Positions 35,472 through 50,094 of a stretch of DNA of 64,000 nt are shown in pieces. The stretch is from NCBI GenBank assembly GCA_028819005.1, contig JAPPMP010000024.1, forward strand, positions 16,903 through 80,902, given 5' to 3'. Made by a program: the position numbers and the translations under genes. The stretch comes from Acidimicrobiaceae bacterium (GTDB lineage: Bacteria; Actinomycetota; Acidimicrobiia; Acidimicrobiales; Aldehydirespiratoraceae). Numbering within the stretch: the stretch's first letter is position 1; each line of letters begins with the position of its first letter. The notes under the pieces are model-generated. The model searched no databases. It worked only from the letters and a program-made list of their open reading frames with translations, and was not told the DNA's origin.

Positions 35472-36578
35472 CTACCCGGAGCTGAGCACTTCCTGAGTCT
35501 GGGGGTCGATCCAGCGGATCTGATGGGATGGGAAACGGATCCACAATTGCTCTCCAACCGTCACTCCGAACGTCGGGTGGGTCGAGACCTTCATCGGTTG
35601 CGCGTCCGACCCCGCCGACAAGAGGGTGACCGTCAGCAAGTTCTGAGCCCCGAGCGGCTCTACCACCTCGACACGGACCTTGAGCCCATCGCTCACAGGC
35701 GATTGCACGGCCTCCATGTTCTCGGCGCGGATTCCCAGGCGGATCGGCTTTCCCCCATACGCTCGCAGGGCCGGCAGCGCCGATCCCACGGTGAGCTTCT
35801 GGCCTGCCAATTCGACAGCAAGTCGGCCTTTGTCCTGCCTTACGACGCCATCGATGAAATTCATAGGGGGATTGCCTATGAAACCACCTACGAACTCGTT
35901 CGACGGGTCCTCGTAAACAACCGTGGGATGATCGACCTGTTGCAGGACGCCCTCCTTCATGACCGCGACCCGGTCGCCCATGCTCAATGCCTCGATCTGA
36001 TCATGAGTGACGTAGATCGTGGTGGCGTTGACCTCAGCCAACAGGCGCTTGAGCTCGGCGCGCATCTCCAGCCGCAGCAGCGCGTCGAGGTTGCTCAAAG
36101 GTTCGTCCATCAACAACACCTCGGCTTTCATCGCCAAGGCGCGGGCAACCGCGACCCGCTGTCGCTGACCGCCGCTCATTGCACTCGGTTTGCGGTCGAG
36201 CAGTTCTTCTATGTGCAGCAACGAAGCAGCCTCTTCGACCCGTTCTTGAATCACTTCTTTGGGGGTCTTGCTCATCCGCAGACCGAAGCCGATGTTGTTG
36301 CGGACTGACATGTGCGGAAAGATCGCGTAACTCTGGAACACCATGGAGATCTTGCGGTTCCCCGCAGGTACGTAGGTCACGTCGCGTCCATCGATCGTGA
36401 TGCGGCCCGAGTCCACCATCCCGAGCCCGGCGATTGCCCGCAACAACGTCGTCTTGCCGCAACCGCTCGGCCCTAGCAGCACCAGGAACTCGCCGTCGTC
36501 GACGGTCAGACTCACGTCGTCGATCGCGACCTTGCTTCCGAACGACTTGCTTGCACGCTCTACAACGATCTCAGACAC
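35472..36578 (-). CDS. ABC transporter ATP-binding protein (MalK/UgpC type)
   Basis: LGPSGCGKTTLLRAIAG, SGGQRQRVAVARAL, LLMDEPLSNLDA, C-terminal TOBE-like region. Confidence 0.93.
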   Translation of the reverse strand: MSEIVVERASKSFGSKVAIDDVSLTVDDGEFLVLLGPSGCGKTTLLRAIAGLGMVDSGRITIDGRDVTYVPAGNRKISMVFQSYAIFPHMSVRNNIGFGLRMSKTPKEVIQERVEEAASLLHIEELLDRKPSAMSGGQRQRVAVARALAMKAEVLLMDEPLSNLDALLRLEMRAELKRLLAEVNATTIYVTHDQIEALSMGDRVAVMKEGVLQQVDHPTVVYEDPSNEFVGGFIGNPPMNFIDGVVRQDKGRLAVELAGQKLTVGSALPALRAYGGKPIRLGIRAENMEAVQSPVSDGLKVRVEVVEPLGAQNLLTVTLLSAGSDAQPMKVSTHPTFGVTVGEQLWIRFPSHQIRWIDPQTQEVLSSG

Positions 36579-36626: not shown

Positions 36627-37514
36627 TCACTTCGTCACCTGGCTCCACATGTTGAACAGATAATTTCGGATGAAGAACATAAACACGATCGACGGAGCCA
36701 TCAAGAAGAACCCGCCGGCGAACTGATAGGCGTCGCTCGACTGCTGGAGTTGGACCAACAGCAGCGCGGGAAGCGTCCGGTTCTCCAAAGTGAGCACCCC
36801 AGCGGCGAAGACTTCGTTCCAGCTCAGGACGAACGCGAAAATAGAGCTGGCAGCGATTCCAGGCAGCGCGAGGGGCAGCACTATGTGCCAGAACGACTGG
36901 AGTGCAGACGCCCCGAACACCTGCCCTGCTTCTTCGAGTTCATGGGGGACACTGGCGAACACGCTGGCGATGATCAAAACCGACGTCGGCATTGTCAACG
37001 CGGTGTGCATGAACGCGAGACTGTAGAGGCTGTCGAAGATTCCGGCGCGAAGAAAGAACACGGCCAGCGGGATTGACAGCACCACGATCGGGAACGCCCG
37101 CACCGCCAGAATTCCGAGGCGCACAAGGTCCCGGCCGGGAAATATGTAACGGGCAATGGCGTAGCCCGCCGGCGCCGCCAGGATCGTTGACAACAACAGC
37201 GTGATGATCGCCACGATGAGGCTGTTCCAGAGCCCGTCGACAACGCCCGGCTGGTCGAGGAAGAATCGCACTGTGTCAGTAGAGAAGGGAATGAACGGCA
37301 GCACGCTCTTCGGATACGAGCGAACCGCCTCTCGGGTGGTGAACGCCATCGACGTCAAGAAGAACAAGGGGACGAGAATCCACAGAACGATGAGTCCGGC
37401 GCCCAGGTAGGTCCAGACCCGGCCCCGGTTCGCGCGCCGCTTCATGTTGCGGTGCAAGCGCTGGACTTCCGAAGAGTCCAGCGGCAAAAGAACGTCGAAC
37501 TTCCTCTCGGTCAT
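36627..37514 (-). CDS. ABC transporter permease (MalG type)
   Basis: EEAGQVFGASALQSFWHIVLPLALPGIAAS EAA loop. Confidence 0.9.
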   Translation of the reverse strand: MTERKFDVLLPLDSSEVQRLHRNMKRRANRGRVWTYLGAGLIVLWILVPLFFLTSMAFTTREAVRSYPKSVLPFIPFSTDTVRFFLDQPGVVDGLWNSLIVAIITLLLSTILAAPAGYAIARYIFPGRDLVRLGILAVRAFPIVVLSIPLAVFFLRAGIFDSLYSLAFMHTALTMPTSVLIIASVFASVPHELEEAGQVFGASALQSFWHIVLPLALPGIAASSIFAFVLSWNEVFAAGVLTLENRTLPALLLVQLQQSSDAYQFAGGFFLMAPSIVFMFFIRNYLFNMWSQVTK

Positions 37515-38935
37515 CTTTCGATCTCCGTGTCGGTGCGGACGGTACGCAGGTAGAAGAAGGCACTGGCCAGCGACAACACCATCACAAACAGCGCGTAGGC
37601 AGCGGCGACGTTGTTGTTGCGGAAGTCGGCGTACTGACGGAAGGTCTCATTGGTCAGAACCGTCACCGTGTCGCCGCCTCCGAGAGCAATCACCACCGCG
37701 AACACCTGCAGGGCGAGGATCGTCCGCAAGATCAGCGCGACTTGAACGCTCGGCCTCAGCAGTGGAAGCATCACGTAACGCACCCGTTGCCAATATGACG
37801 CTCCGAACAATTCAGCTGCTTCGAGGTTTTCGTCGGGAATCGCTTGGAGCCCTGAAACAAGGATCACCATCACGATCGATGTGGATCGCCAAATCTCTGC
37901 CACGACGATCGCGAGGATGATCCAGTTGCGCGTCTGCGAACTGAGGAACACATGGGGAGAGTCGATGATTCCGAGACCTTCGAGAACTGAGTTCAAGAGG
38001 CCGTTGCCGGTGAAGACCGAGAAGAACAGAGTGCCGACGGCCAAGTCGCTCATTCCCATGGGAATCGTGAATACGTAGAGGAACCACGAGTTGAACTTGA
38101 GCCGTGCGTGGATCACCAACGACATGAGCAGCGCCAGAGCGAACTGCGCGGGAATGATCAGAACGAGCAGAAGAAGCGTGGTCCGCCAAGCAGGATCAAA
38201 GAAGCGGTCATTGAACATCTTCTTGATGAACTCGGTCGTGAACTCTCCGGCGGACCCTCGATCGATCCGACCCGTTACTTCATCTCCGAAGACCTGGATG
38301 AATCGCGACGGCGCCCAACCCTGGGCAGACTCGCCGGGATCTGTGCCGCGGACATTGAACCAGACTTCAAGGATCGCGACCTCCACGATCGCGGCGGGGG
38401 CGCGTGGTTCAACGAAGGCAACCTCCGTCCCACCTTCGCCCGGACCGTCTCGCAGCGTTGTTCGGGGATCATCCGGTTCGCCGAGCTTCGGCCTGACCGT
38501 GCCGCTCAGCGGAGTGCCGTCGGGACCCTCCTCCCGTACACGGATGCGCGATTCGGGAGCCCAGCCGTCCACGGTGGTGCCGTCGGGTTGAGTGACCGCA
38601 ACTCGGAACCACGTTTCAGTGAGCAGGTCAGTCGCATCGGCGTCGGTGAGAAGATTGCCCTGCCTTCCCAGGACTTCGACCGTGACTCCCTGCGAGAGGC
38701 GACCGGACTCTGAGTCCTTCAGGCTAGGCCCTTCTCGCAACGGCAAAACCGCTTCATCGTCCCAGATGGAGAGCCGCAGACCCTCATACATCGGATAAGC
38801 GAAGAAGAACCCGAGGAAGATCAGGACTGGCGCGACGAGCATGTAGGGAGTCGCCGCCCGCCGAATGTCACGCAGTCTGCTCTTCTGCGCCTGCGGAATC
38901 TGTTCGCTAGACGAAGCTGGGGTGATCAAGTTCAA
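37511..38935 (-). CDS. ABC transporter permease (MalF type) with tandem SH3-like insertion after TM1
   Basis: TM1 then LREGPSLKDSESGRLSQGVTVEVLG...WFRVAV..GTTVDGWAPESRIRV and LRDGPGEGG...VWFNVRG..ESAQGWAPSRFIQV; EAA loop EAAELFGASYWQRVRYVMLPLLRP. Confidence 0.88.
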   Translation of the reverse strand: MNLITPASSSEQIPQAQKSRLRDIRRAATPYMLVAPVLIFLGFFFAYPMYEGLRLSIWDDEAVLPLREGPSLKDSESGRLSQGVTVEVLGRQGNLLTDADATDLLTETWFRVAVTQPDGTTVDGWAPESRIRVREEGPDGTPLSGTVRPKLGEPDDPRTTLRDGPGEGGTEVAFVEPRAPAAIVEVAILEVWFNVRGTDPGESAQGWAPSRFIQVFGDEVTGRIDRGSAGEFTTEFIKKMFNDRFFDPAWRTTLLLLVLIIPAQFALALLMSLVIHARLKFNSWFLYVFTIPMGMSDLAVGTLFFSVFTGNGLLNSVLEGLGIIDSPHVFLSSQTRNWIILAIVVAEIWRSTSIVMVILVSGLQAIPDENLEAAELFGASYWQRVRYVMLPLLRPSVQVALILRTILALQVFAVVIALGGGDTVTVLTNETFRQYADFRNNNVAAAYALFVMVLSLASAFFYLRTVRTDTEIER

Positions 38936-39035: not shown

Positions 39036-40487
<1,452 letters not shown>

Positions 40488-40685
40488 CAGGTTCTCCTCT
40501 TGGATCTTGCAACCCACCGACATCGGTGGGACTTGTTCCCCCAACGTTTTCGGGATGTCAATCCTCAACGTTTCGGAAGTGATGGCCAATTTAGACATTG
40601 ATCCGTGTTGGCGTCAACTCATCCACAACCGAAACTCGTCAGACGCCGCTTTCGCGGTCAGTGGTGAAACGCCTCGAAGATTCGC

Positions 40686-43376
40686 TTACTCCGAGGTCTG
40701 GTGTGCTAGGAGCTCAGCGACGTAATCGTAGATTCGGCGCTGGATCCTGAGATCGTTCAACGATCGCCCCAGTTCGGCGATCACAGGAACCGGGGCGTCG
40801 GGCAGGCTCACTTCGGCCTCAGGACACTCGAGCCGGAGCCGGTTGAACGCTGCTGACAACGCCAATTCCCGACTCTCGCGTTCGTTGACCAACACCTGAT
40901 GGAGAACAAGGTGGTATGCGTCGCCGGTCAATTCTCCCAGCGACTCCCGCAAGTCGGCCGCCTCGTCCCACAACTGAAGAGACTTTTCCTGCAGGGCCTC
41001 GACAATGCTCTCGTCGGGGAGCGAACGCGACCTGCCGCCGCGGTCTGCCGCGAACCCGTGCATCATCACTGAAACCTCGGCTGGAATGCCATTGAGGCTC
41101 TCGAGGATCACAGGAAGCTCGACGATCTCGCGAGCTCCGACCTCTGTGCCGGCCAGCGTCTTCGGCAGTCCCGCCGGATTGTAGAAGCGAGCCAACGGGC
41201 CGTCGGCTCCGAAGCGGAGCGCGGTGATCGGCAAATTGCACCGCAACGGCTCCCATCGAGTGCATGTTCCCTCACTTCCGACAACCTCAACTGCTATGGG
41301 CGGATTGCGAAACGACTCGCACAGGGCAGCGAACTCGTCCGAATCGGGCGGCGCATCGACCACAGAGACCCCGAGTTCGTGCCGAGTTGCTCTCTCGCAT
41401 CGCGCTCCCGGAACATACATCGAAGGGCCTGCATCGCCTGCGCGTCCTTGCAATCCTGTCTTGGCGAGCCACTCGACGCTGCGCCGTAGCGCAATAGCGA
41501 TCTCGCCGTCGTCGCCGACGCGATACGCCCGCAAGCCCCTCGCATGCACAATCACCGAGCGGCCATTTTCAAACGAAGCAACAAAGTCCTGAAACGGAAA
41601 AGTCGCAACCTCATCAACCTCGCGCTGCCCCATGAGAACCCGTGCAAGTCCAGCGTCGATCTCATGACCGAACAACTCCGTGTCGATCGCCTCACGTTGC
41701 ACAACATCGAAAGGCATCCCGGCTAGCACCGTCCCGGTCTGGCCCGGGGAGAAGAGCAACTCCGCGATGTAATCCGTGCCGCTACTGTCGATATCGATCT
41801 GAAGTTCGACCGTTTTTGTGTGGCTGAATCGAAACCGCATCGAAACGTGAATCTCTCCAGCCGGCCAATCCGCCTTCAACTCGATGAGGAGAACGACGTC
41901 GAGATCACTTGCGGATTCAACCTCAGCATGCATCACTCGCCCGAGTGCCAACCGCTCTCTCGGCTCGCTCGAATACGTGTCGCCCACATCGCGGTGCACG
42001 CTAAGGGGTCCGATGACCACACCACCGATGTCTATGGTGCCGTTGTCACCGACGGTCACGGACCCGAAAGGGCTTTTGACCTCGTCCAAAGGGATACCAG
42101 GAGAGTTTGTGAAGCGCTCCACCGCAGAGACAGGCGCCAAGCCGAGGCCTTCGGACTCGAAGGCCATGACTTCCTGGCCCACCCTTAAGCTTCCCGAACG
42201 CGCAAATGGTGTGCTCGACAACACATAGCGCCCGTCCTGCATTCCTCTCGCCAACCATCTGATCGAGCGTTCGGCGTCTTGCTTCAGCTCGTCGAGAAGC
42301 CGACGATAGGAACGCTCCATCCGCTCGTGGACGGGATCGACGCTCACACCGCAGATGCAGTCGTGGATCACATTTCGCAAGAGTTCTCGGTCCCACTGGT
42401 CGTACTGCTCTGAACGGTATGGAGCGCCACAGGCAGCGGCGAGCGTCGCCAACGGTTCGCAGACCCGGTGCAACGCGTGTTCGACATCGGCATGCAGAAC
42501 CTTCAAGTAGGTCCTTGTCGACAGGGTCCCGGGAAACGTCGAGCCATACTTCCCCGACAGCAGTTCCCCGTCGATCTTCGGGGCGGAAGTTGAATATTCG
42601 GCAACAGCACGTGCGTAGTCCTCGGGCGAAGACTCGACCAGATCAACTGCGTCCCAACGCTCGCCGCTCTCACGATAGATGGTGAAGGGGTCCTCGGGTT
42701 CGGTTTCAAGGTCATATCCGTCGAAGAGCGGAATGGGCAGCCCGCGGTAGTACTCGACGAGCTTGTCGTACTCGCCCTGAAGTCGCCGCGTGGCGAGCGA
42801 TTTGGTCCGTGAGATTCCATACAGGTTGCGATACCCCCCGAAGAGGTTGATCGCGGCAATCTCGGTACCGTCGGGCGACGCCCAATTGAAAACCGGCTCC
42901 AGTTCGGGCACGCCGCGCCACACGTACGCGGTTGAAACCCCGAACATCGCAAGAATCTGCGGTGCTTGGGAAATATGGCCGAAGGTGTCGACCAACCACG
43001 CTGTCTGAGTCTTGCCACCGTAGCGAGCGGCGTCGGTGGTGCCGGCACTTGTGTTGCGCACCAGCAGTTCACCGCTGGCCATTCGCCAATCCGGCTGACT
43101 GTAGAGCGGGCCGATACCGAGTACGCCGGCGCTCACCAACCGCGCAACCAATGCCTCGTATTTCGGCTGGGTTCGAAGCAGATCTTCGAGCGCGAGCGTC
43201 TGGCCGTCGAACAAGTACTGATAGCTGGGATTGGCCTTTTGGAGTTCATCAATTGCGTCGATCAACTCGGGGATCCACTTGGTCGTGTACTCCTCGGTCA
43301 AAAACCACTCGCGATCCCAGTGGGTGTGGTTGATGATGTGCACTGATCTCGATTGTTCGGGGGAGAGTTCGGTCAT
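40686..43376 (-). CDS. Alpha-mannosidase, GH38
   Basis: HIINHTHWDREWFLTEEYTTKW; 896 aa; TFGHISQAPQILAMFG. Confidence 0.9.
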   Translation of the reverse strand: MTELSPEQSRSVHIINHTHWDREWFLTEEYTTKWIPELIDAIDELQKANPSYQYLFDGQTLALEDLLRTQPKYEALVARLVSAGVLGIGPLYSQPDWRMASGELLVRNTSAGTTDAARYGGKTQTAWLVDTFGHISQAPQILAMFGVSTAYVWRGVPELEPVFNWASPDGTEIAAINLFGGYRNLYGISRTKSLATRRLQGEYDKLVEYYRGLPIPLFDGYDLETEPEDPFTIYRESGERWDAVDLVESSPEDYARAVAEYSTSAPKIDGELLSGKYGSTFPGTLSTRTYLKVLHADVEHALHRVCEPLATLAAACGAPYRSEQYDQWDRELLRNVIHDCICGVSVDPVHERMERSYRRLLDELKQDAERSIRWLARGMQDGRYVLSSTPFARSGSLRVGQEVMAFESEGLGLAPVSAVERFTNSPGIPLDEVKSPFGSVTVGDNGTIDIGGVVIGPLSVHRDVGDTYSSEPRERLALGRVMHAEVESASDLDVVLLIELKADWPAGEIHVSMRFRFSHTKTVELQIDIDSSGTDYIAELLFSPGQTGTVLAGMPFDVVQREAIDTELFGHEIDAGLARVLMGQREVDEVATFPFQDFVASFENGRSVIVHARGLRAYRVGDDGEIAIALRRSVEWLAKTGLQGRAGDAGPSMYVPGARCERATRHELGVSVVDAPPDSDEFAALCESFRNPPIAVEVVGSEGTCTRWEPLRCNLPITALRFGADGPLARFYNPAGLPKTLAGTEVGAREIVELPVILESLNGIPAEVSVMMHGFAADRGGRSRSLPDESIVEALQEKSLQLWDEAADLRESLGELTGDAYHLVLHQVLVNERESRELALSAAFNRLRLECPEAEVSLPDAPVPVIAELGRSLNDLRIQRRIYDYVAELLAHQTSE

Positions 43377-43482: not shown

Positions 43483-44517
43483 CTACCGGACAGGGCCCGT
43501 CGAGTCCCTCACGACGATCTCGCCTTCAAGCAGTACTTGAGGGTTCGCTTCAGAGGTCTCGTCGACCAAGTCGAGGAGTTGAAGACACAGGGTCTCGCCC
43601 ACGATTCGCGGTGATCGGCGAACGGTGGTCAAACCTGGCGTCGCGTAGCGTCCGGCGATGATGTCGTCGAAGCCGGTGACGCTCAGCTCTTCAGGCACAC
43701 GTATGCCCGCGTCTCGAGCCGCGCCGAGAACCCCGAGCGCCAACAGATCATTCTGCGCCACAATGGCCGTTGGCCGATCACTTCTCCGGAAGAGCTTTTG
43801 CGCAGCGGTGTAGCCGGAGTCCTCGTCGAAATCGGCTTCGACGATCAGATCGGGATCAACCGCAATGCCGAGGCCGGTAACGGCGTTCTCGAAAGAGAGG
43901 AAGCGATGGTGCGACATGCTGAAGCGAGCCGGTTCGATGATGCAGGCGATCCGACGATGTCCGAATGCCACGAGGTGCTCAACGATCGGACTCATGACGT
44001 GGTCGACGTCGTCAACGAACGGGAAGTCGGGATTGTCGCAGCCTCGACCGAACGCAACGAACGGGAAGTCAGCCTCAGCAAGAAAGCCGATACGGGGATC
44101 GTCAACCTCGGTACGAACAAGCACGAAGCCGTCGACTTGCCTCCAGACGAGGGCCTGCTCGTAATTCTTGAAATCACTCGCAGGAGCGACGCCCACGGTC
44201 AACCGAACCTCGACCTGCTTGGCGGTCGCGGTCGCAACCAGCCCGGACAAGAGCTCGGCAAAGAACGCATTGCTGAAATGGAGTTCGCTCTGGGGCAGCA
44301 CGAGACCAATGGCGTCGGCCCGGACAGAACCGGTCTTGAGTCGACGTGCTTCCAGATTCGGGACATAGCCGAGTTCGGCGGCCACCGCGCGGGCTCGTTC
44401 CTTGGTTTTCTCCGCAACATCCCATTTGTCGTTCAGTGCCCGTGAAGTCTGCGTGACCGACATGCCCAATTCCCTTGCAACGTCATGGAGGGTCACTCTG
44501 CCATTCGCGGGGTCCAT
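43483..44517 (-). CDS. LacI-family transcriptional regulator
   Basis: VTLHDVARELGMSVTQTSRALNDKWDVAEKTKERARAVAAELGYVPN; start at 44517. Confidence 0.92.
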   Translation of the reverse strand: MDPANGRVTLHDVARELGMSVTQTSRALNDKWDVAEKTKERARAVAAELGYVPNLEARRLKTGSVRADAIGLVLPQSELHFSNAFFAELLSGLVATATAKQVEVRLTVGVAPASDFKNYEQALVWRQVDGFVLVRTEVDDPRIGFLAEADFPFVAFGRGCDNPDFPFVDDVDHVMSPIVEHLVAFGHRRIACIIEPARFSMSHHRFLSFENAVTGLGIAVDPDLIVEADFDEDSGYTAAQKLFRRSDRPTAIVAQNDLLALGVLGAARDAGIRVPEELSVTGFDDIIAGRYATPGLTTVRRSPRIVGETLCLQLLDLVDETSEANPQVLLEGEIVVRDSTGPVR

Positions 44518-44651
44518 AACCGAAACGCTACCAGCGCGCCCACAGGTCTCTTGTCTCTGCTTGCCTCTGTTTGTCTCTCTTGTTCTCGTCTCATGCACGG
44601 TGGTCTCAGGGAGGGATAGCGGGCATGTGAAGCGCTCGCTACGGTTGGGAG

Positions 44652-48168: not shown

Positions 48169-50094
48169 CTAGTGCGCGGCGACTTCGGGAGCGCCGACCC
48201 GGTCGGCGATCGCCTGGCTGGAGCGGTCCAGGACAATCGCCATCATCACAATCGCGAAGCCGACTTCGAATCCGAGCCCCACCTCGCTGTTCTTGACAGC
48301 TGAAATCGTTTCGAATCCGAGTCCGCCGCCACCGACGAGGCCTGAGATGATGACCATCGCCAAGACCAGCATGATCACCTGGTTCACTCCCGCCATGATC
48401 GTTCTGGCGGCCAGAGGAATCCGAACGCCGAACATGGTCTGGCGCGGCGTGGCCCCGAACATCTGAGACGCCTCGACGCTCTCAGTCGGCACCTGTTTGA
48501 TGCCCAGCGCGGCGAGGCGCACCCCCGGCACGATGGCGTACAGAATCGAGGCTATGAGGCCCGGCACCACCCCGATGGTGAACAGCGTCACCGCCGGAAT
48601 GATGTAGACCAGTGAGGGGATCGTCTGCAGCGCATCGAGTACGGGGCTGAGGGCAGCCTCCACTCGGCGGTGGCGGCCCGCGGCGACGCCGACCGGAATC
48701 GCCAACAGGATCGACAGCACAACAGCAGCCACCACCTGCACGAACGTGTCGATCGACAACTCCCACATGCCGATCAACAGGATCGAACCCATTGCGCAGA
48801 CGTTGAGCAATGCCAGCCTCCAGCCCTTCAACCATGCCCCCAGCGCGGCGGCCGAAGCGATGATCACCGGCCAGGCGACCGAGTCGGTCAGATAATCGCG
48901 AACCGGGACGTAGTACCAGGACACCACCGTGTCGTTGAAGGCACGGGTGAACCAGCGCAGGTTGTCGCGAGCCCATTTGACGCCGTCGTCGATGGGGTCG
49001 AACGCTCTGGTCTCCCACATCTCGGGAAACGCGATGTAGTTGGCGGAACGACCGAAGATGATCAGGCCGATCACCCCGCCGACACAGATCAGCACCGTTC
49101 TGCGCGAGGGCGCGGTGGCCCTGTCCTGGCCGACGACCGCTCGGCCGAGGCGATCGAGAACCGCAGCGATGGCGACAACCGCCAACCCGGTGGCTACACC
49201 CCGACCTGTCCTGCGCTGGCTCAGAGTGTCCATGACCGACTGGCCCAGGCCCCCCGCGCCGAGCAACGTGGCCAGAACCACGATCCCCAAAGCCATCATG
49301 ATCGTCTGGGTGACTCCCGCCATGATCGTCGGCAGCGCCATCGGTATCTGCACCTTGCGCAAGGTCTGCCAGCGGGTCGCGCCGAACATGGTCGATGCCT
49401 CGACAGACTGTTGAGCCACCCCGCGGATGCCCAGTGTCGTCAAACGCACGACCGGCGGAAGGGCGTAGATCACCGTGGCCAACGTGGCCGGCACGGGGCC
49501 GATGCCGAAGAACATCACCATCGGCACGAAATAGACTGGGGCGGGGATCGTCTGCATGGCGTCGAGAACCGGTCGTATCGCAGTGTCGAAGCCCCGCCGG
49601 AACGCTGCGAGAACTCCGATCGGCACTCCGATCAGCACTGACAGCACGATCGCCATGCCCATCAGAGCCAACGTCTCGATGGTCACCTCCCACAGGCCCA
49701 CCAGACCCGGATAGATGATCGCCAAAGAGGCTGCTATTGCCGATTTCCAGGCCCGCGTCCGGGCAATGTACAAGAAGATGGCAATCGGGATCACGAACCA
49801 GGGAACCCACAGCAGAGTTTCCTCGATTGTTTCGAGGCCCGTGCTCACAAGCGACGTGAGCGGGCGGAAGATGACCGTGAACAGCCAATTGCTGCTCCGG
49901 TTCTGCTGAGCCCAGCCGGCGAAGTCGTCGAGGGGGTCGGAGAAGGTCTCGTCGAGGTGCTCGGGTAGTCGGGTCCCTGCGAAGATCAACTGCAGACCGA
50001 CGAGGGCCAGCGGCACAACGATCCACATGGCGCGTCGCTGCCAGTCGGCCGTCGCGTTCAGAGAGTCGGGATCCAATGTGGTTGCGGCCGTCAT
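48169..50094 (-). CDS. Glycine betaine/proline-type ABC permease with two ProW-like domains in one chain
   Basis: Two homologous halves, each with PVLDA(M/L)QTIP...VRL(T/A)(T/A)LGI...SVEAS(T/Q)MFGAT...QIP/RIPLA signature. Confidence 0.88.
   Translation of the reverse strand: MTAATTLDPDSLNATADWQRRAMWIVVPLALVGLQLIFAGTRLPEHLDETFSDPLDDFAGWAQQNRSSNWLFTVIFRPLTSLVSTGLETIEETLLWVPWFVIPIAIFLYIARTRAWKSAIAASLAIIYPGLVGLWEVTIETLALMGMAIVLSVLIGVPIGVLAAFRRGFDTAIRPVLDAMQTIPAPVYFVPMVMFFGIGPVPATLATVIYALPPVVRLTTLGIRGVAQQSVEASTMFGATRWQTLRKVQIPMALPTIMAGVTQTIMMALGIVVLATLLGAGGLGQSVMDTLSQRRTGRGVATGLAVVAIAAVLDRLGRAVVGQDRATAPSRRTVLICVGGVIGLIIFGRSANYIAFPEMWETRAFDPIDDGVKWARDNLRWFTRAFNDTVVSWYYVPVRDYLTDSVAWPVIIASAAALGAWLKGWRLALLNVCAMGSILLIGMWELSIDTFVQVVAAVVLSILLAIPVGVAAGRHRRVEAALSPVLDALQTIPSLVYIIPAVTLFTIGVVPGLIASILYAIVPGVRLAALGIKQVPTESVEASQMFGATPRQTMFGVRIPLAARTIMAGVNQVIMLVLAMVIISGLVGGGGLGFETISAVKNSEVGLGFEVGFAIVMMAIVLDRSSQAIADRVGAPEVAAH

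Follow-up and report, generated by a model that had tools for sequence, protein, structure and literature searches.

The stretch of DNA analysed here (64,000 nucleotides; termed the window) encodes a membrane-spanning subunit of a type-I (CUT1) ABC importer in which the loop between the first transmembrane helix (TM1) and the transmembrane core carries two bacterial SH3 (SH3b) domains. This tandem insert was built stepwise—from none to one to two domains—within a single importer lineage, and the first of the two domains, SH3b-1, is the ancestral copy. The plan of type-I ABC importers is conserved and familiar from textbooks, and the P2 domain of MalF is the best known of their large extracytoplasmic inserts. 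An apparently unrelated domain has now been found at the site corresponding to that of P2, and living relatives having zero, one or two SH3b domains form a natural series in which the function of such inserts could be tested.

The permease and its operon

The operon contains, in order, genes for a LacI regulator, a family GH38 glycosidase, a substrate-binding lipoprotein (SBP), the SH3b permease, a MalG-type permease and a MalK/UgpC-type ATPase; that is, the SH3b permease is encoded together with an SBP, a second permease and an ATPase, as expected of a binding-protein-dependent importer. A preliminary description had placed the permease correctly and had quoted two related segments within it, which are found at residues ~63-135 and 158-216; its gene, on the minus strand, begins with a TTG codon and ends with a stop codon that falls within 37511-38935 and overlaps the start of the MalG-position gene. 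The features are as follows (AF2, AlphaFold2).

43483-44598, minus strand: LacI-family regulator (Pfam LacI 2.9e-11, Peripla_BP_3 3e-36)
40686-43376, minus strand: GH38 alpha-mannosidase, MngB-like, with no obvious signal peptide (Pfam GH38N, E 7e-23)
39036-40598, minus strand: substrate-binding lipoprotein whose lipobox cysteine is followed by a long acidic linker (Pfam SBP_bac_1, E 1e-19; orthologues)
37511-38935, minus strand: 474-aa permease of a CUT1-type ABC importer, in the 'MalF' position, bearing the tandem SH3b insert (open reading frame and translation, Pfam, full-length orthologues)
38765-38857, minus strand: permease TM1, residues ~27-57 (AF2 helix 15-57; conserved with insert-less homologues)
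38528-38752, minus strand: SH3b-1, residues ~62-136 (Pfam SH3_3; AF2 barrel; in 37 of 40 relatives)
38465-38527, minus strand: inter-SH3b linker, residues ~137-157, with conserved R148 and T146 (orthologue alignment; dN/dS)
38288-38464, minus strand: SH3b-2, residues ~158-216 (sub-threshold Pfam SH3_4; hhalign; AF2 barrel)
38216-38287, minus strand: beta stalk or re-entry segment, residues 217-240, 'GRIDRGSAGEFTTEFIKKM', leading from the insert to the core (alignments; AF2 strands)
37541-38215, minus strand: permease core, residues 241-465, with the EAA-loop motif EAAELFGAS...LPLLRP (translation, Pfam, PDB matches)
36627-37514, minus strand: second permease, in the MalG position (Pfam BPD_transp_1, E 2.5e-17)
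35472-36578, minus strand: ATPase of MalK/UgpC type (Pfam ABC_tran, OB_MalK, TOBE_2)

Within the core, residues 267-462 match the Pfam family BPD_transp_1 (E 3.2e-16; 60 bits against a cut-off of 26.4), and the EAA-loop motif for ATPase coupling, EAAELFGASYWQRVRYVMLPLLRP (residues 372-395), is mostly invariant in the orthologue alignment. The ATPase scores 383 bits against NCBIfam UgpC, below the cut-off of 432. A scan of the operon for promoters and terminators yielded counts close to the shuffled expectation. Elsewhere in the window, a 641-aa open reading frame on the minus strand (48169-50094) appears to be a fusion of two ProW/OpuAB-like permease halves, each with an EAS/EAA-type loop as judged by eye.

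Identity of the insert

Relative to insert-less homologues, the ~150 extra residues of the preliminary description come to ~157 (residues 62-218) between TM1 and the core, and the tandem SH3b pair proposed there is borne out by Pfam, by hhalign, by matches in orthologues and by two predicted barrels. Residues 63-129 match SH3_3 when the whole permease is searched (34.9 bits, E 1.8e-8, cut-off 27), and the match is stronger for the insert alone (39.7 bits, E 5.6e-10, against the same cut-off). Among 40 aligned relatives SH3_3 is matched in 37, which are exactly those having the insert; because all three exceptions are insert-less, the match is not due to chance.

The second domain is more divergent in the window copy, where SH3_4 is matched at residues 158-210 with 15.5-19.4 bits (15.7 bits for the whole protein; the best score, E 8.8e-4, coming from the insert alone), below the cut-off of 24.1. 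This sub-threshold score would suit the reading that the second segment is not an SH3b domain at all, its match reflecting chance or a low-level beta repeat; that reading is highly improbable, however, given that hhalign relates segment 2 to segment 1 with a probability of 97.7% (E 2.3e-12), that among 13 orthologues the segment has SH3_3 matches in 9 (best E 4.5e-7) and SH3_4 matches in 7 (best E 9.3e-7), and that it is modelled as a beta-barrel with high pLDDT. Judged by these profile comparisons, SH3b-2 is homologous to SH3b-1.

Structure prediction points the same way. An AF2 model of the full permease, computed from an input alignment of the 40 relatives (mean pLDDT 75.8, pTM 0.56), places two beta-rich domains, formed by the insert, after a long TM1 helix (15-57) and ahead of the core helices, and predicts that strands at 221-224 and 229-232 form the beta stalk, whose end is common to insert-less homologues. 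A model of the insert alone (pLDDT 88) shows two small beta-barrels with an SH3-like strand pattern, mostly at pLDDT 90-96 (SH3b-1 mostly 90-96; SH3b-2 ~93). The ordinary MalF P2 fold, which had been put forward as the outcome that would count against an SH3b pair, was not found: the permease has no Pfam MalF_P2 match at E ≤ 1, and AF2 predicts two SH3-sized barrels. A Foldseek search of the full model matched MalF (4ki0_F, E 4.7e-12 over 513 columns) as well as SugA structures. The insert model, searched against the PDB, gave no significant match (best E 0.019), and a search of PDB chains with the insert profile (hmmsearch) likewise returned none at E ≤ 5. The SH3 fold is therefore assigned from profile HMMs and from the AF2 strand pattern.

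Distribution and stepwise origin

Within the window's family the full-length permease is patchy, occurring in 7 of 51 genomes searched (the window's own included); in the six others it is ~60% identical and flanked by LacI, SBP, F, G and K genes. A scan of 84,980 genomes found 41 relatives, which represent three forms of one permease: an insert-less form of about 290-310 aa; a one-SH3b form, mostly ~376-387 aa, at 10 loci in Anaerolineae; and a two-SH3b form, mostly ~458-505 aa, at 27 loci besides the window, in Acidimicrobiia and in two metagenome-assembled genomes (MAGs) labelled Chloroflexi. SH3b-1 is also present in the one-SH3b Anaerolineae homologues, whereas SH3b-2 is confined to the two-SH3b clade. 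Of 400 Chloroflexota genomes, 22 other than that of the query have a relative of the core, and none of those with a readable N-terminal part has an insert. The architecture had been called unusual, and it is so in that insert-less relatives are the Chloroflexota norm and in that none of the open-access papers searched describes an ABC importer permease with SH3b domains; the window protein is not the only case, however, and the architecture is a lineage trait spanning two phyla rather than a one-off.

In a maximum-likelihood tree of the core, from which the insert was left out, two-SH3b permeases form one clade (100/99), one-SH3b permeases adjoin it (79/95) and insert-less rows lie outside. 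The forms thus nest in the order zero, one, two, and only two changes of SH3b state are needed. The SBP and MalG trees agree with the core tree; because each of the three requires just two state changes, the cassette evolves as a unit. The simplest reading is that one SH3b domain was captured in Anaerolineae, that a second was added, and that the two-domain form was then transferred laterally into Acidimicrobiia.

The direction of transfer rests partly on the two Chloroflexi-labelled MAG contigs (L077 and L090). Both encode the two-SH3b form along with GH38 and branch basally in the Acidimicrobiia clade. In L077 (3277-5916), two SBP-like sequences occur in tandem within one open reading frame.

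Neighbouring glycosidases and the substrate

At each of the 27 two-SH3b loci found by the scan there is a gene for one, and never both, of two enzymes: GH38 at 16 loci and an MGH1-like enzyme of family GH63 at 11. The only NCBIfam match of the window GH38 is to mannosylglycerate hydrolase, at 222.7 bits, below the equivalog cut-off of 1138, which makes it a homologue with a putative substrate. The GH63 enzyme matches Pfam MGH1-like_GH (E 3e-107) and is nearest to TTHA0978 (PDB 2z07, 4wva-c; E 4.9e-110), the Thermus mannosylglycerate hydrolase. Because two unrelated enzymes that converge on mannosylglycerate alternate at one importer, an alpha-mannosylglycerate-like glycoside is the probable substrate. 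The locus also marks a candidate importer of such glycosides in marine and sponge-associated Acidimicrobiia; a search of titles and abstracts found nothing specific on ABC import of mannosylglycerate. In the one-SH3b Anaerolineae loci the glycosidases, where recognised, are GH125 and/or GH13_18, not GH38 or GH63.

The GH63 enzyme also adjoins the permease gene at two insert-less loci (L106 and L108). This substrate class therefore looks older than the insert, and the SH3b domains are unlikely to be the substrate-recognition part; the idea that they read the glycan of the substrate was disfavoured on this ground.

Possible roles of the insert

Comparison with insert-less homologues and with 4ki0_F places the insert after the first core transmembrane helix and before the core, corresponding to the site of MalF P2, and on the extracytoplasmic face, where the SBP must dock. 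In MalF, P2 comes after the equivalent helix. P2 binds MalE throughout the transport cycle, as reported by Daus et al. 2009 (cited in PMC3328499 and PMC3150292). From position and exposure, the leading, though tentative, explanation is that the SH3b pair may be a P2-like cap for docking or retaining the SBP. The two domains would project outward as a cap over the translocation path and would help to dock or hold the lipoprotein SBP, a role that the unrelated P2 has in MalF; the importer would take in an alpha-mannosylglycerate-like glycoside, which would be split in the cytoplasm by the adjoining GH38 or, in sister loci, by the GH63 MGH-like enzyme. It counts against such a cap that the insert is dispensable for this type of importer, inasmuch as insert-less relatives look like complete cassettes. 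More speculative, though possible, is the fuller history in which an SBP-docking module evolved from SH3b through capture in Anaerolineae, addition of a second copy and lateral spread to the largely SH3_3-poor Acidimicrobiia. If true, an SH3b module does the job of MalF P2 at the corresponding site by means of an extracytoplasmic part unrelated to it in sequence.

The preliminary description had raised tethering of the SBP or of cell-wall glycans as possible functions. The main rival to the docking cap, wall tethering, comes from what the domain does elsewhere. SH3b domains are familiar chiefly from wall-acting proteins and often bind cell-wall peptides or glycans, so that the pair might instead bind peptidoglycan peptides or wall glycans and thereby fix the importer to the wall or space it from the wall. 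Moreover, the one-SH3b state is found in Anaerolineae, a group with genomes that abound in SH3_3 (73-100 matches each in three of them). Against this, and weakly against any general wall-binding role, the SH3b permease is the sole SH3_3 match in the window genome, and in most relatives checked SH3_3 occurs nowhere, or only or mainly in the permease; with few or no other SH3_3 proteins, SH3_3 does not serve widely as a wall anchor in those genomes. The insert has also diverged more quickly than other parts of the importer (mean distance 0.65 versus 0.24 for the core). A tether is thereby weakened; it is less favoured than the docking cap and appears rather unlikely.

Both SH3b domains are under purifying selection, yet they evolve faster than the core: between close pairs their dN/dS is mostly 0.03-0.25 (0.47 in one pair), as compared with ~0.01-0.07 for the core. 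For the inter-SH3b linker, values of 0-0.15 were obtained in most pairs and 0.62 for the window versus L071. With the distances of the core, MalG and MalK controlled for, insert and SBP distances were uncorrelated in a partial Mantel test (r = 0.00, p = 0.53), and the insert-SBP signal was no better than that of the LacI control; this co-evolution test thus lends no support to the docking cap.

The sequence of the window SBP shows ~50-70 aa of acidic, Glu/Pro-rich linker following the lipobox; SBP orthologues have highly variable, repeat-like linkers (such as the DDSDSDM repeats in L034), and the acidic linkers of two-SH3b systems, mostly ~35-85 aa, are longer than those of insert-less systems. 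Such lengths would suit SH3b domains that act as a structural spacer with no specific ligand—for instance, by holding TM1 or by lifting a docking platform toward a long-linker SBP—as would fast-evolving insert surfaces, their dN/dS being several-fold above that of the core. Yet the SBPs of one-SH3b Anaerolineae have plain signal peptides with neither linker nor lipobox, so that linkers do not simply lengthen as SH3b domains are added, and four arginines outside the usual SH3 core signature (R130, R132, R134 and R148) are conserved in orthologues. A ligand-free spacer is accordingly unlikely.

The missing lipobox could also mean that SH3b replaced the lipid anchor, retaining a soluble SBP at the permease, but this is very improbable and was rejected as the origin of the insert: among SBPs sampled from three such Anaerolineae genomes (L123-L151), 27 of 28 readable ones lack a lipobox and have plain signal peptides, which makes this the background there, and two-SH3b systems keep lipoprotein SBPs. 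(Lipobox-less SBPs in Anaerolineae are unusual if those bacteria are single-membraned.) N-terminal truncation of the SBP was considered and dropped, because in the alignments its start, though compact, is complete (STQF.PVEEAEKLR...).

Comparison with known systems

The closest solved relative of the SH3b permease by sequence is SugA of the Mycobacterium trehalose importer LpqY-SugABC (PDB 7cad, 8ja7), the PDB matches being SugA at 1.4e-19, MsmSugA at 4.8e-19 and MalF at 0.003. SugA has the same CUT1 fold and the same SBP-F-G-K position but no domain inserted between TM1 and the core. MalF of Escherichia coli MalFGK2 (PDB 2r6g, 4ki0) likewise has a large extracytoplasmic domain after its first core transmembrane helix; its P2, however, is another domain, its sequence similarity is weak (E 0.003), and it has two extra N-terminal helices that the SH3b permease is without. 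The label 'MalF-type' is thus a loose one, given the N-terminal helices and the nearest sequence relative.

The insert-less Chloroflexota homologues (L106-L108, L112-L115, L154-L173) have cores that are mostly ~45-55% identical and, where flanks are available, the same SBP and MalG neighbours, but no SH3b domain. The one-SH3b Anaerolineae homologues (L096-L105 except L100, and L110) carry an SH3b-1-like domain at the same site and the same cassette, LacI included; they differ in having a single SH3b, a lipobox-less SBP and, where found, GH125 and/or GH13_18. SH3b domains of SH3_3 type occur in secreted or wall-acting enzymes such as YkfC (PMC2954226); those of the window permease belong to the same domain superfamily but sit inside a loop of an integral-membrane transporter.
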